Assembly: GCA_947629465.1 (NCBI GenBank)
Contig: CANRDZ010000005.1
Coordinates: 1-34,495, forward strand
Reading direction: 5' to 3'
Source: an uncultured Bacilli bacterium
Lineage (GTDB): Bacteria > Bacillota_I > Bacilli_A > RF39 > UBA660
DNA length: 34,495 nucleotides
The position numbers were made by a program, and so were the translations under genes. The notes beneath the pieces are model-generated. The model was not told the DNA's origin. It worked only from the letters and a program-made list of their open reading frames with translations, and searched no databases. Shown in pieces: positions 23,786-29,693 of this stretch (positions are counted from its first letter, which is position 1; each line of letters starts with the position of its first letter).

Positions 23786-25309
23786 TTATTCTTTACTTTT
23801 TTTCTTTTTAATTTTATCATCTTCAAAAATATCATAAAATTCTTTTGTCTCTTCTTCTTTATTTACTATTTCTTTTATTTCATTAATATCTTCTTTTATT
23901 ATACTTTCATTTATTTCTTCTTCAATTTTAGCTTTTTTTTGCTTATTCTTCTTTTTATTTTTTTTAGTTTCAGGTTTAATTTCTTCTTTTTTACTTTCTA
24001 ATTCTTTTTTTAATTCATTATTCTTTTTTATAGTTTTTCTCTTGCTAGAATTTAAATTAATTAAACAAATAATAGCTAAAAGTAAACCTATACCAAAGGC
24101 TACTATAACATAAAAATATGTTTGATTTAAATCTTCTAAAGATTCTATAATACTTTGATCATAATAAGCAAATGTCTTATTAACAGAATCATAATTATAA
24201 AAATCCTTTTCACCATTTAAAACATTTATACCATAAACTATATAATTTTGTGAATCTTCACGTGCTTTAAAAACTGTATAAGTATTTCCATCTATTTCTT
24301 CTTCATATTTTGTCAAACCTTTTAATTCATCATCATAATCTAAAACAATAATTTTTAAACTAGTTCCTATAGTTTCTGTATATTTTTTATAATTACCATT
24401 ATCATATATAAAATTTAAAACAGTACCATCATCTTTTTTTAATCCAACTAAAGTATAATCCAATTTTTCATTATAACAAGCCGGTATCTTTAAACCATTA
24501 ATCTCAACTTCACTTTCATTATATAATTCTGGACAACTATAATTACTGCGAAGTTTTATAACTGTATAATTTAAATTATTAATTGTTACATTAATAGGAT
24601 TTTCATCAATAACATTTACTAAAATTGTATAAGTTTTTTCACTACCATTTTCCGCTCTTACAACGACATTAACTGTATTAATTCCTTCCGTTACTTCTAT
24701 AGTACCATCACCAGATACATGAGATTTACTATCACTTGGAGTAGCATTTACTTTAATACTATTAGTACCTTCTGGAACATTAATAGAATAATTTAAAGTA
24801 TCTTTATTAAATACAGGATCTAAAGTGTATCCTTCAATACTTAAACTTTTTAAATTATTATCTTTAGAATAACTAGCCTCTAATTCTTCTTGAGTTATAA
24901 TTTTAATTGTTTTAGTAGATTGGCTAACAGTCATTTCATTCATATCATTATCATAAACTAAAAGACTTCCAATTGATAATTTTGATGATCCAGTTTTTAA
25001 AGTTTTAAATTTAAATGTATAAGTTTTACTTTTAACACCATCTACACCAGAAGCATAACCAACCATATAATTACCAGAACTTTCAGCTGTAGATGAAGTT
25101 AATTGTAAATATTTTTTATCATAATTAAGTTGCATTTCCCAACTACCAATTGGTGTATTACTAGATAATTTAACTGTTACTGTAACACTATTATTAACGA
25201 CAATTTGATTAGAAGATGAAATAGAAACACTAGCGCTTGCAGCATATACTAAATTAGGTAATAAAACTAAATTTAATATTGTTAATAACAAAATCGTAAA
25301 TTTTTTCAT
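23786..25309 (-). CDS. Membrane-anchored cohesin-domain surface protein
   Basis: This 507-residue protein has a signal peptide (1-24), a cohesin-like beta sandwich at about 25-137 (ASVSISSSNQIVVNNSVTV, GSWEMQLNYDKKYLQL), and a cadherin-like beta-sandwich domain at about 148-234. A Tyr-rich region with one Cys pair (259, 278) follows, then a membrane segment at 397-417 and a cytoplasmic Lys/Glu-rich tail of ~90 residues. Cohesins bind dockerins. The gene lies 11 bases downstream of a dockerin-bearing glucosaminidase on the same strand and is very probably co-transcribed. It likely tethers that enzyme to the cell. SD AAAGGAG. Confidence 0.85.
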   Translation of the reverse strand: MKKFTILLLTILNLVLLPNLVYAASASVSISSSNQIVVNNSVTVTVKLSSNTPIGSWEMQLNYDKKYLQLTSSTAESSGNYMVGYASGVDGVKSKTYTFKFKTLKTGSSKLSIGSLLVYDNDMNEMTVSQSTKTIKIITQEELEASYSKDNNLKSLSIEGYTLDPVFNKDTLNYSINVPEGTNSIKVNATPSDSKSHVSGDGTIEVTEGINTVNVVVRAENGSEKTYTILVNVIDENPINVTINNLNYTVIKLRSNYSCPELYNESEVEINGLKIPACYNEKLDYTLVGLKKDDGTVLNFIYDNGNYKKYTETIGTSLKIIVLDYDDELKGLTKYEEEIDGNTYTVFKAREDSQNYIVYGINVLNGEKDFYNYDSVNKTFAYYDQSIIESLEDLNQTYFYVIVAFGIGLLLAIICLINLNSSKRKTIKKNNELKKELESKKEEIKPETKKNKKKNKQKKAKIEEEINESIIKEDINEIKEIVNKEEETKEFYDIFEDDKIKKKKSKE

Positions 25310-25320
25310 ATCTTACTCCT

Positions 25321-27063
25321 TTACTGAACTATTGTATAAGTTCCCAAAATATTTTTTTGAATTTGTAATAAATCTAAAGCATTTATTTTTCCATCACCTG
25401 AAGTGTCTCCAGCATGAAAATATTCATTATTTAATGTGTATGTTTTTAAAATATTTTTTTGAACTTGTAATAAATCTAAAGCATTTATTTTTCCATCTCC
25501 TGAAGTATCACCTTTAATTAAAACAACTAAAGTTTCACTTTTTTCTTTATTACTAACTGTTACTTTAAAACCAGTACCAATTAAACCATCTGTTACAACA
25601 TTATCATTACTATCTTTAATAATAACACTATTAGCACCAGAAATACTTTCTATAGTATTTTTAACTGTACTTACTGAAGTATTAGGATTAATACCGGCAA
25701 TTTGATTTGTTTGATATTTATAACCACTACTAACTATTATTGTATTAATATCTAATGTAGTTTTAATATCATCATCAGGCATCGGAACTGCACCACTATT
25801 TTGATTAAAATCACTTTTATCCATATTATTATAAACAGGAATATGAAAAATAAAATCGCTATCTAAAATATTCATATTTTTATAAGATTTATAAGTTGTT
25901 TTTGCTTCACTAGAAGGAGCAGCAATATTAGTCATATATTGATGACCATATAATCTACTACTTTCAGTGGGAACAACATTAAATTTTTGAAGATAACCAC
26001 TATACTGACCAACAGAAATATAAGATGAAGCTATTCCACTAGCCCCTCCATATATAGCATTATACAAACTATCCCATTTTTTAGCATAAGCATATTCTAA
26101 TCCACAAAGTGTTGTTCCTTTAGAAGTGGCACAACTATCAGTAACTCCAAAATTATAAAAGTTATAATATCCTAAATATTTACCACCTTCACCATCATAT
26201 ACCCCACTATAAAGATTATAAAGTGAATTACTATTACCAAGCTCTTGTAAAATTCGACTTGATACAAAAATAGGACTTATATTTGCAGCCAGTGAAGCTG
26301 TATTAATTATTTCTCCTAAATTATTTCCAATCCCCACATGATAAGTATAGAATTGAGCATTTTTAATAATATTATTTATTGCATCGACATATTTATCTTT
26401 TAAAGTATCACTATATTTTAAATATTCAAATTGAAAAATAGTATTTTCTGAAAACCAATTCCTAGGATCCATATAATAAGCTACTGCTTTAGAAGATGCT
26501 GGATACCAAATACTAGTATAAGCATTTTTACAAGTACTATCTATATTTGATTTATCATTACTAGCAATATAACTTTTTCCACAAGCACTTTCACTTGTAA
26601 CGGCACTACTCCAATCAAGACCTGTAAATATTGGCTTAAATTCCCAATTAGGATGATTTATTTTTAAAGCACATAAACCTTGCCAATAACTTTCTGGAAA
26701 GCCTAAATCTTTTAATTGCTGTTCACAAGCATTTTTCGCTTCAACATCAATTTTTTCTTCACTTACTTCAACAAATTCACTACAAACATATCCAATAGAT
26801 GAAGATTCATAATATATCTGATACCACCCATTAGAACATCCCCCTTCATCCTTAACCAAAGTATTATTAACTAACGTATAAACTGAATCTTCAACTAAAG
26901 TTTTAATTCTTTCATAATTAGTACCAGGACCTTTTCTTAAACTAACCCCAGAGTCAATTATTTTACCTTTATAAGTATCAGCATAACAAATATTCATATT
27001 AAATATGAATATAAGTATTAAAAAAAACATAAATAATAAATAGAATTTTTTAATGTTTTTCAT
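25321..27063 (-). CDS. Secreted N-acetylglucosaminidase with SH3b and dockerin domains
   Basis: This 580-residue protein has a signal peptide (about 1-28), a bacterial SH3 domain at about 30-98 (VSLRKGPGTNYERI), and a GH73-type glucosaminidase region at about 110-400. The likely catalytic Glu is in SSRILQELGNSNS (Glu274), and the YNFYNFGV block is typical. A spacer domain follows, then a type I dockerin in the last ~62 residues: two GDTSGDGKINALDLLQ calcium-loop repeats 34 residues apart. It probably cuts peptidoglycan glycan strands outside the cell. The ATG at 27063 follows GAAGGTAGG; an upstream in-frame ATG at 27087 has no SD. It is the first gene of a unit with the cohesin protein. Confidence 0.92.
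   Translation of the reverse strand: MKNIKKFYLLFMFFLILIFIFNMNICYADTYKGKIIDSGVSLRKGPGTNYERIKTLVEDSVYTLVNNTLVKDEGGCSNGWYQIYYESSSIGYVCSEFVEVSEEKIDVEAKNACEQQLKDLGFPESYWQGLCALKINHPNWEFKPIFTGLDWSSAVTSESACGKSYIASNDKSNIDSTCKNAYTSIWYPASSKAVAYYMDPRNWFSENTIFQFEYLKYSDTLKDKYVDAINNIIKNAQFYTYHVGIGNNLGEIINTASLAANISPIFVSSRILQELGNSNSLYNLYSGVYDGEGGKYLGYYNFYNFGVTDSCATSKGTTLCGLEYAYAKKWDSLYNAIYGGASGIASSYISVGQYSGYLQKFNVVPTESSRLYGHQYMTNIAAPSSEAKTTYKSYKNMNILDSDFIFHIPVYNNMDKSDFNQNSGAVPMPDDDIKTTLDINTIIVSSGYKYQTNQIAGINPNTSVSTVKNTIESISGANSVIIKDSNDNVVTDGLIGTGFKVTVSNKEKSETLVVLIKGDTSGDGKINALDLLQVQKNILKTYTLNNEYFHAGDTSGDGKINALDLLQIQKNILGTYTIVQ
25346..25514 (-). repeat. Direct repeat encoding the two dockerin halves
   Basis: Two near-identical copies of about 66 bp start at 25346 and 25448, a period of 102 bp (34 codons). 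They differ at only a few positions, including third codon bases. This is the usual internal duplication of dockerins, here little diverged. Confidence 0.85.
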
Positions 27064-27150
27064 TATATGCCTACCTTCATATAACATTTTATCATATTAT
27101 ACAATAAAACTCTCTAAATAGATAATTACTTTGACATTTTTTTTCAATTA

Positions 27151-27207: not shown

Positions 27208-27408
27208 GTGTTACAAAAAAATTTTGATTCGGTGGATATTTTCTTTATTATTTTTATTTGTGTTTATTTTATAACTCTTTTTTTATTTTTAATTTCATTA
27301 ATAACAAAAGAATTAAATAAAACCAAAATAAAAAAGGTTAAGAAAAAACATAACCTTATATTAAATAAACATTACAAACATAATATATCATATCTTAAAA
27401 ATATTTAA
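27208..27408 (+). CDS. Small single-pass membrane protein
   Basis: This 66-residue protein has one long hydrophobic segment (about 9-32) and a strongly basic tail (NKTKIKKVKKKHN). The GTG start is preceded by AAGAGGG at a normal distance, and a good promoter lies upstream, which argues that it is real despite its size. The stop overlaps the end of the convergent lipoprotein gene by four bases. The function is unknown. Confidence 0.6.
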   Translation: MLQKNFDSVDIFFIIFICVYFITLFLFLISLITKELNKTKIKKVKKKHNLILNKHYKHNISYLKNI

Positions 27409-27944
27409 TCTAATTCATAATTATATATACCATGAATTTTTAAAAGATCATTTTCAGAAGGTTGATTTATAATATATTTATCTTTTTCTTTATTAACGGT
27501 AAATGTTATTGTATAATCAACTTTTTTTGTCATATCCATCATTTTATCTAATTTATATGAAATAAATAATTCCTCATTATAATTACCATCTTTATCAACA
27601 AATTCTTTACTATTTTTTGCTAAATATTCATTTGCCTCATTAATTGCTTTATATAAATCATAAACACTAATTTTAACCGTTACATAAGCAGTATCCCCAT
27701 CATACTCTTCATCTAATATTTCATAACTTAAATCTTTATATTGTTTTTTTAATATATCACGATATTTATCTTTATCTAATTCACTTAAATTTTCTTCATC
27801 AATTATTTTTTCCATATCTACTAAAACTTCACTATCTAAAGTTTTATATTTTTTTAAATATTCTTCAACTTCCATTTTAGCAGTCTTCATTCCACAAGCT
27901 CCAAGCATTAATAAAGAAACAAATAATATTATAAATTTTTTCAT
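27405..27944 (-). CDS. Lipoprotein of unknown function
   Basis: This 179-residue protein has a short signal peptide with a clear lipobox, LMLGAC, so the mature protein starts at Cys17 and is lipid-anchored outside the membrane. The remainder is helical at first (EEYLKKYKTLD..), then beta-rich with repeated Lys/Tyr/Asp, similar to uncharacterised DUF-type lipoproteins of Bacillota. It has a good SD (GAGG). Confidence 0.8.
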   Translation of the reverse strand: MKKFIILFVSLLMLGACGMKTAKMEVEEYLKKYKTLDSEVLVDMEKIIDEENLSELDKDKYRDILKKQYKDLSYEILDEEYDGDTAYVTVKISVYDLYKAINEANEYLAKNSKEFVDKDGNYNEELFISYKLDKMMDMTKKVDYTITFTVNKEKDKYIINQPSENDLLKIHGIYNYELD

Positions 27945-27987
27945 TTATACACATCCTCATTTATAATTATTCCTTTATTTAAAAAAT

Positions 27988-28620
27988 TTATACATTATTA
28001 TAAGATAGTTTAATTAATTCATAAATATGATATTCTTTTTCAGTTAATTTATTTTGTAATTTTAATAACATATTTTGATACATTTTATCAACATCATTTA
28101 AAAGATTAGAAAACCATTCTAAATAAATATATTTTAACTTACTATATTCTTTATTATTATAAATTGAATCTATTTCTAATTTTAAAATTTTCTTTATTTT
28201 TAAATCTTGTCTAGTTTCTATTTCATAATTATCATCACTTATTATTTGATAATTTATTTTTCTTAAAGCTATATTATACATAAATTCATTTATATTTAAT
28301 TCATCTTCTAAAATTAAACTACTTTTACTTAAAGATATTCCTTCATCATTAAATTCTAATGCTATACTATTTTTACCATCACTAAATATACTTGTATATT
28401 TTAAAGTATTATTACCTTTTAATTTAGTTTTATTTTCTATTAAATTCATTAATTCTTGATCTATTTTTATTTTTTTAGAAATCATATTAACTATCGTTTT
28501 AGCATCAACATGAAATAGAGGTATTTTCTTAACATAATCAATTACATCTTCACTATCCCATTCATAAAACATTGAATAGCTATCTTGAAAATTTAAAAGT
28601 ACATCATAATAATAATCCAT
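27988..28620 (-). CDS. DUF3603-like hypothetical protein
   Basis: This 210-residue soluble protein starts with DYYYDVLLNFQ and FYEWDSEDVIDYVKKIPLF, followed by IALEFNDEGISLSKSSLILEDELNINEFMY. These blocks resemble the DUF3603 family of Bacilli, as recalled. The C-terminal third is helical and charged. The function is unknown. Its start overlaps the end of the upstream small membrane gene by 17 bases, so the two are translationally coupled. Confidence 0.75.
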   Translation of the reverse strand: MDYYYDVLLNFQDSYSMFYEWDSEDVIDYVKKIPLFHVDAKTIVNMISKKIKIDQELMNLIENKTKLKGNNTLKYTSIFSDGKNSIALEFNDEGISLSKSSLILEDELNINEFMYNIALRKINYQIISDDNYEIETRQDLKIKKILKLEIDSIYNNKEYSKLKYIYLEWFSNLLNDVDKMYQNMLLKLQNKLTEKEYHIYELIKLSYNNV

Positions 28621-28819
28621 TTTTAGATTTCCTCCTTAATGATAAAATAATAAATAAAATTCCAATAAAAAATAAGTCACAATAAACACTTCTAATAATA
28701 AAATAAACAAATTCAAAAAAACTATACCCTATGACTAATAAATTTAAATATAAAAATATAAAAAATAAACCTACAACACTAAATATATAACCTAATATAA
28801 ATAAAATTATTCTTATCAT
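28604..28819 (-). CDS. Small two-helix membrane protein
   Basis: This 71-residue protein has two hydrophobic segments (about 3-31 and 35-61) and a basic C-terminal end. It is unrecognised. It overlaps the DUF3603-like gene by 17 bases and is probably its operon partner. It is divergent to uppP. Confidence 0.65.
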   Translation of the reverse strand: MIRIILFILGYIFSVVGLFFIFLYLNLLVIGYSFFEFVYFIIRSVYCDLFFIGILFIILSLRRKSKNGLLL

Positions 28820-28889
28820 AAATATCTATTATATTTTATTTATAAATTTTTAAAAATATTATATAATTATATAGAAAGTGAGATAAAAA

Positions 28890-29693
28890 ATGAATTATAT
28901 AAAATATTTAATCCTTGGTATCATTCAAGGAATAACTGAACCTTTACCAATATCATCTAGTGGACATATTTTTTTATTTAAAAATTTATTTGAAACCGAA
29001 ATATTTAATACTTTTAATTTTGAAATTATTTCCAATTTTGGTTCTTTTTTAGCTATCTTATTTATATTTAGAAAAGATATTATTAAGTTAATAAAAGATT
29101 TTTTTGGTTATATATTTAGTAAAGAAAAAATTAAATATAAAAATGGTTTTCTTTATGTTATTAAAATGATTATTAGTACTATTCCTGTAGGAATAACTGG
29201 TTTATTATTTAATGATTATTTAGAAACTCATTTTAATTCTTTAAATTTATTAGCTTTTACTTTTTTATTTACATCACTAATGTTATTTATTGTAAGAAAT
29301 ATAAAAGGTGAAAAAGGAAGTAATGAAATAACTTTTTTTGACGCGATTATTATTGGTTTATTTGAAGCAATAACTATCATACCAGGAATATCTAGAAGTG
29401 GAACAGTTTTAGTAGCATGTCTTATTTGTCATTTAAAAAGAGATGATGCTTTAAAATATACATTTATGTTATATTTTCCAGTAAGTGCTGGAACTATGTT
29501 ATTAAAAGCACCAGATTTACTTACCACTACAACATCTTTACTTTTACCATATTTATTAGGAATGTTTGCAGCTTTAATAACTACCTATATTTCATATAAA
29601 TGGTTAAGTAATATTGTTAAAAATGGTAAATTATGGCATTTTTCCATATATTGTCTTTTATTAACATTATTTATATTTATTTATTTTCGTTAA
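28890..29693 (+). CDS. uppP: Undecaprenyl-diphosphatase (BacA family)
   Basis: This 267-residue membrane protein has about eight transmembrane segments. It carries both active-site loops of the family: GIIQGITEPLPISSSGH near residues 11-27 and the second repeat IIGLFEAITIIPGISRSGT. It removes a phosphate from undecaprenyl diphosphate to recycle the cell-wall lipid carrier, complementing UppS in this window; it can confer bacitracin resistance. The length is normal. It has its own terminator. Confidence 0.96.
   Translation: MNYIKYLILGIIQGITEPLPISSSGHIFLFKNLFETEIFNTFNFEIISNFGSFLAILFIFRKDIIKLIKDFFGYIFSKEKIKYKNGFLYVIKMIISTIPVGITGLLFNDYLETHFNSLNLLAFTFLFTSLMLFIVRNIKGEKGSNEITFFDAIIIGLFEAITIIPGISRSGTVLVACLICHLKRDDALKYTFMLYFPVSAGTMLLKAPDLLTTTTSLLLPYLLGMFAALITTYISYKWLSNIVKNGKLWHFSIYCLLLTLFIFIYFR

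Follow-up and report, generated by a model that had tools for sequence, protein, structure and literature searches.

A type I dockerin on a predicted cell-wall enzyme, encoded directly beside a membrane protein with a cohesin-like first domain, raises the question of what such a coupling device does at the cell envelope. Cohesin-dockerin coupling has, to our knowledge, been described almost exclusively as a means of assembling enzymes that break down food or host polymers. We address this question in a stretch of 34,495 nucleotides from an uncultured Bacilli bacterium (hereafter the window), in which a reading of the sequence alone had noted a glucosaminidase with a C-terminal dockerin, followed after 11 bases by a membrane anchor. 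Both open reading frames (ORFs) are present as described, on the minus strand, with the glucosaminidase gene preceding the anchor gene.

The gene pair and its modules

The features of the pair, listed in the order of transcription, are as follows (residue numbers count from the start of each ORF).

25321-27087, minus strand: gene of the glucosaminidase with C-terminal dockerin, 588 codons, likely start at 27063
26977-27063, minus strand: enzyme signal peptide, about residues 9-37 (sequence; start of aligned homologues)
26767-26952, minus strand: bacterial SH3_3 domain, residues 46-107 (Pfam 26.6 bits against a cut-off of 27; kept in relatives)
26089-26733, minus strand: catalytic domain, N-terminal part, residues 119-333 (AtlE-type similarity; homologue alignment)
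26242-26244, minus strand: predicted catalytic Glu282 (aligned with the AtlE Glu that is Ala in the 4pi8 chain)
25813-26088, minus strand: catalytic domain, C-terminal part, residues 334-425 (stands first in permuted relatives)
25525-25770, minus strand: X module before the dockerin, residues 440-521 (conserved block without a Pfam name)
25345-25515, minus strand: type I dockerin with two near-identical loops DTSGDGKINALDL, recognition positions 10-11 AL/AL (Pfam; loop reading)
25310-25320, minus strand: intergenic gap of 11 bases
23786-25309, minus strand: gene of the membrane anchor with cohesin head, 507 codons
25238-25309, minus strand: anchor signal peptide, residues 1-24 (sequence; helix 2-16 in the model)
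24896-25237, minus strand: predicted cohesin head, residues 25-138 (sub-threshold Pfam match; AlphaFold2 model; fold searches)
24602-24868, minus strand: Cadherin-like beta-sandwich PF12733, residues 148-236 (E 1.2e-10; in 62 of 62 members)
24125-24601, minus strand: core beta domain, residues 237-395 (kept in relatives; confident in the model)
24053-24118, minus strand: transmembrane helix, about residues 398-419 (sequence; helix 385-441 in the model)
23789-24052, minus strand: charged cytoplasmic tail, mostly disordered, ending in ETKEFYDIFEDDKIKKKKSKE (model; sequence)

The ATG at 27063 is the second ATG of the enzyme ORF (residue 9) and is probably the true start, since the homologues begin at that ATG. 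The catalytic domain is of AtlE type (phmmer E 2.2e-10 to 4pi7) and its predicted catalytic residue, Glu282, is invariant across the aligned homologues, which places the enzyme among glucosaminidases of the AtlE/SagB kind. In the Pfam profile search, PF01832 stayed below threshold for this enzyme, and its score of 41.3 bits against the SagB equivalog NF052642 does not reach the curated cut-off of 425. The window's genome encodes a single copy. We predict a secreted glucosaminidase that would cut peptidoglycan, in agreement with the peptidoglycan hydrolase named as cargo by the sequence-only reading. At its C-terminus, Dockerin_1 (PF00404) matches residues 525-581 over the whole profile (1-57 of 57; E 4.8e-13, 49.5 bits against a cut-off of 22.9) and the two loops begin at residues 527 and 561, so that the module is a type I dockerin, as had been read. 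The repeats agree with each other at recognition positions 10-11 in most relatives, and the Ala-Leu of the window dockerin at these positions, A536/L537 and A570/L571, is what we take to be the Ala-Ile/Leu kind of Clostridium cellulolyticum.

The head of the anchor is less evident from profiles. The Pfam cohesin family (PF00963) scores 19.4 bits on residues 28-112, under the cut-off of 24.1, rising to 26 bits once neighbours in frame are added; across the anchor homologues it matches 22 of 62 at E 0.01 or better (best 2.6e-8), and a sequence search of the window anchor against the PDB gave no match. Residues 25-138 are, in contrast, confidently modelled by AlphaFold2 (62 sequences). With this model as query, the best Foldseek matches are cohesins of C. 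perfringens (2w1n, E 5.8e-9; 2jh2, E 2.8e-7), while VIA-align superposes it on the C. cellulolyticum cohesin 1g1k with Z 13.4 and 2.2 Å over 116 residues and on 2vn5 with Z 12.9, cohesins occupying the top rows of the comparison. By its predicted fold the head is thus a cohesin; the possibility that the first domain is something else, by which the sequence-only reading could have failed, was checked on the model and did not materialise. Below the head and the Cadherin-like domain, the core beta domain had no convincing Pfam match, and a single-pass helix holds the protein in the membrane, as expected from the initial reading. A 427-residue protein with tandem Cadherin-like domains resembling the anchor stalk is encoded on another contig of the same genome (G000:C2:24594-25109) and has homologues in most genomes of the genus.

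That reading had further suggested that the long charged tail might link the enzyme to machinery inside the cell. Taken up as an explanation of the pair, the proposal makes it a transmembrane coupling device, whose tail ties the wall enzyme to division or synthesis complexes in the cytoplasm. A C-terminal motif like ETKEFYDIFEDDKIKKKK (Y-D-I-F-E-D-D, then lysines) indeed recurs in 34 of 77 anchors from several genera, and the median tail of the relatives is 74 residues long; in the window no other ORF carries this motif. We nevertheless consider a coupling function unlikely, and as a general property of the anchors it finds no support: the tail is predicted to be disordered in the AlphaFold2 model, ranges from 9 to 173 residues with four relatives having 22 or fewer, so that it is nearly absent in several of them, and lacks the motif in 43 of the 77. 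Lysine-rich tails can, moreover, act simply as positive-inside stop-transfer signals. In some lineages the tail may still serve as a binding peptide.

Conservation of the pair and its cargo

A scan of public genome contigs yielded 78 loci, nearly all from bins of uncultured Bacilli, Mollicutes or Tenericutes. Together with sixteen loci from the wider class, a paralogous pair (L077) and the window, these make up the locus set, in which 94 loci have a usable anchor. A dockerin protein lies directly beside the anchor in 88 of the 94, across several Bacilli families and with a median gap of 12 bases. This number of adjacent pairs in the window and its relatives exceeds what chance would give, and the enzyme and anchor genes form a conserved two-gene, operon-like unit. 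Among the six unpaired anchors, four end at a contig end. In the fifth (L170, one species), the enzyme has no dockerin and has instead many SH3 domains, some of them inserted where the two catalytic parts would meet, and the anchor retains a cohesin-like head, a combination that counts against the tether proposed below. The sixth (L193, 4349-5395) is a headless anchor in a single-contig genome of 3.2 Mb (G218) without any dockerin, that is, socket and plug are both absent.

Spread of the anchor was counted across 395 sampled genomes of the class, the genomes compared being mostly metagenome bins. A full-length-like anchor (E below 1e-80) occurs in 42 of the 56 genomes sampled from the window's family; one more was counted in a third family, and about 17 anchors at greater distance (E about 1e-32 to 1e-57) in two other families. 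In these two families, the genomes with loci L187-L196 measure 1.4-3.2 Mb. Within the window genus, 33 of 37 genomes searched contain a dockerin, mostly one each. The window's genome (1.14 Mb, 86.8% complete) has exactly one dockerin and one cohesin, encoded by the two genes described here; the count of other dockerin proteins that had been suggested as a check thus gave none beyond the enzyme's own. Membership in a cellulosome was accordingly rejected, the only dockerin of the genome being on a glucosaminidase. Next to the pair, at 27405-29693, lie genes for a lipoprotein, a DUF3603 protein and a divergently oriented undecaprenyl-diphosphatase, an order kept in much of the genus.

The partner of the anchor in most loci is a glucosaminidase of the window type. 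Other families have in its place a glucosaminidase of the Pfam type, PF01832 (E 5e-9 to 4e-15), or else a GH25 lysozyme (E 9e-23). Where it was identified, the cargo is, judged by domain content, nearly always a peptidoglycan glycosidase. In six species the catalytic domain is circularly permuted: residues 119-333 of the window enzyme match the later part of the permuted domain and residues 334-422 its earlier part (L076 8383-10104; L078 8680-10395; L079 8301-10019; L080 6843-8663; L083 1624-3384; L171 2288-3991). The breakpoint corresponds to window enzyme residues 333/334, the place at which L170 has its inserted SH3 domains. We considered that the variant loci might be assembly artefacts and rejected this, the permuted order being identical in six species from different projects. 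The paralogous pair L077 (7422-11595) is a second docking pair of its genome (G014), in which an M6 peptidase carries the dockerin, the anchor is Big_2-headed and the anchor gene comes first.

Co-variation and joint switching of head and dockerin

Evolutionary distances of the anchor head correlate with those of the dockerin more strongly than in any other of 15 module pairs (raw 0.84-0.89, partial 0.49-0.72; 68 loci), and this correlation remains the top one without the variant loci, without the window genus and in the deep lineages. Since dockerin and head are close in the DNA, we used the modules beside or between them (X module, signal peptide and Cadherin-like domain) as linkage controls. 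In this comparison, dockerin and head reach 0.49-0.64, against 0.15-0.23 for X module and dockerin, 0.07-0.12 for dockerin and signal peptide, 0.11-0.17 for signal peptide and head, and -0.02 to 0.12 for head and Cadherin-like domain. Linkage as the sole cause of the co-variation is therefore insufficient.

The two modules also switch type together. All eleven pairs with a dockerin of the GATDYVKIKN type (ATDYVKIKN, subtype B) have a Big_2-like head, 67 pairs are of the cohesin/A type on both sides, and none of the 78 typed pairs is mixed; the remaining ten of the 88 pairs have heads outside both profiles used and were left untyped. On the tree of the anchor body, four supported independent contrasts of head type all agree (sign test p 0.125), rising to six when all branches are counted. 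With only four supported contrasts and this p-value, the pattern of switching makes a strong argument whose statistical weight is modest. More specifically, species of the window genus with Big-type and cohesin-type heads have a common anchor body (99% supported clade), whereas the enzymes of the Big-type species group with that of the distant locus L171 in a clade of their own (100% support). The two clades are most simply explained if enzyme and anchor head were exchanged together, with a breakpoint between the head and the Cadherin-like domain. In addition, the Big-type pair of L176 goes with an enzyme that is not permuted, and at L171 the enzyme is permuted and the head is of another kind; the docking pair therefore does not simply track the catalytic domain.

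Such an exchange also bears on a reading in which head and dockerin co-vary as DNA neighbours passed on together by recombination. Only the gap and a signal peptide separate the two modules, and one whole cassette of enzyme and head was clearly exchanged within the window genus. We hold this reading to be very improbable as an account of the co-variation, given that the signal peptide and X module, lying between or beside them, correlate much less and that the association of head and dockerin recurs in other families. A dockerin that has another partner, or none, with adjacency reflecting shared transcription only, has equally little in its favour: some relatives do encode other large proteins with cohesins and dockerins, but the window's genome is without a second cohesin or dockerin, the head and dockerin co-vary more than physically closer modules, and the 78 typed pairs are free of mixing. 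We would be surprised if this were the explanation. Co-variation and co-switching across relatives thus indirectly support the head and the dockerin as partners.

What the Big-type head is was approached through a model of the L131 anchor. Its head is shorter and Ig-like, with intimin (1f00, Z 11.4, 2.1 Å over 87) and further Ig-like domains as the best matches and only Z 9.6 and 6.8 Å over 169 to the cohesin-FnIII double module 2w1n; the Big_2-type head may nonetheless descend from a cohesin. Should this head bind the dockerin encoded next to it, it would form a class of receptor distinct from the cohesins. We see a little under an even chance that dockerins indeed have this second, Ig-like receptor class, that socket and dockerin subtype switched together in about four to six independent Bacilli lineages, and that one anchor body was in this way fitted with different plug-socket pairs and different glycosidases, one of them circularly permuted. 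The natural matched and switched pairs could serve directly as a set for probing dockerin specificity, among them a possible receptor that is not a cohesin.

Proposed tether and comparison with known systems

We consider it quite probable that the pair is a Ca2+-dependent tether holding a peptidoglycan glycosidase at the membrane. The domains, the cohesin fold, the adjacency, the co-variation and the matched switching are computed results; the binding, its dependence on calcium and the activity of the enzyme are inferred. In this mechanism, the glucosaminidase would be exported from the cell, and its dockerin would take up a calcium-bound fold outside and plug into the cohesin head of the neighbouring anchor. 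The head would be carried by two additional beta domains and, beneath them, a single transmembrane helix, so that one glycan-cutting enzyme per anchor is kept at the inner face of the wall. There the enzyme might shorten newly made glycan strands or set them free, in the manner of SagB when held by SpdC in Staphylococcus aureus. The analogy draws on the shared glucosaminidase fold, the membrane location and the neighbouring undecaprenyl-diphosphatase gene in the window genus; a role in new-strand processing is the weakest step of the mechanism, and we put it forward tentatively, as somewhat doubtful.

Alternatively, the enzyme could act beyond its own wall, in release or in attack on competitors or food, with the anchor only displaying it like a minimal scaffoldin. 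Cellulosomes, mucinolysomes (PMC12997984) and C. perfringens toxins all work on outside substrates, and the M6 peptidase of the one paralogous pair would suit such a role. The anchor is, however, membrane-spanning and not sortase-linked, though sortases are present in 38 of 38 genomes of the genus (the window's own has three); where the cargo was identified, it is with few exceptions a peptidoglycan glycosidase; and the undecaprenyl-diphosphatase gene is a neighbour of the pair in the window genus. Action outside the cell's own wall thus seems improbable to us. The same sortase counts rule out a lack of sortases as the reason for having a tether.

The tether at the membrane resembles several known systems in part. 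Like the type I cellulosome pairs of C. cellulolyticum (1g1k, 2vn5), it has the cohesin fold (Z 13.4) and duplicated dockerin loops, but here there are one cohesin per anchor and one enzyme, direct membrane anchoring and no scaffoldin array, and the expected substrate is peptidoglycan rather than plant polysaccharide; no cellulose-binding module was found. Cohesin-dockerin pairs that occur singly and outside cellulosomes have precedents, for instance in C. perfringens, where they join toxins and glycosidases (as cited in PMC12997984). These single cohesins (X82; 2jh2, 2vo8, 2w1n) are the closest Foldseek matches of the window head; they are borne by secreted glycosidases acting on the host, whereas the window cohesin sits on a membrane anchor, and peptidoglycan is the expected substrate of that anchor's partner. 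The mucinolysomes of Limousia (PMC12997984) likewise place cohesins and dockerins outside cellulose degradation in gut Firmicutes, with many dockerin enzymes on scaffoldins for mucin in contrast to the single pair for peptidoglycan considered here. In S. aureus, the SagB-SpdC peptidoglycan release complex frees new strands from the membrane (PMC12272431). It shares with the window pair a membrane-held glucosaminidase under a membrane partner, the catalytic domains being distantly related (NCBIfam 41 bits), but SpdC belongs to the CAAX protease family and is integral to the membrane, and the window anchor is a single-pass protein with a predicted cohesin plug and socket. We found no cohesin-dockerin pair dedicated to a peptidoglycan hydrolase in the open-access literature, subscription papers lying beyond the scope of the search, nor any open-access paper linking a dockerin to RF39.

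Taken as a one-to-one tether for a peptidoglycan glycosidase, the pair suggests that the coupling device of the cellulosome also serves wall maintenance. Its conservation throughout a broad group of gut Bacilli with small genomes, and its presence in further families of the class, suggest a housekeeping role. The tether also offers a testable answer to the question of how these bacteria hold a hazardous wall enzyme in place at their membrane.

Some species of the genus additionally encode giant proteins of about 2470-3075 residues with cohesins, dockerins or both (L096 2770-10185, L097 1328-10555, L098 1152-10208). Elsewhere, clusters of several dockerin-bearing surface proteins (L093 8071-17184, L094 9592-13971) resemble small multi-protein scaffolds; they are accompanied by small membrane proteins (L093 3904-4716; L094 5521-6297), near which cohesin matches fall.
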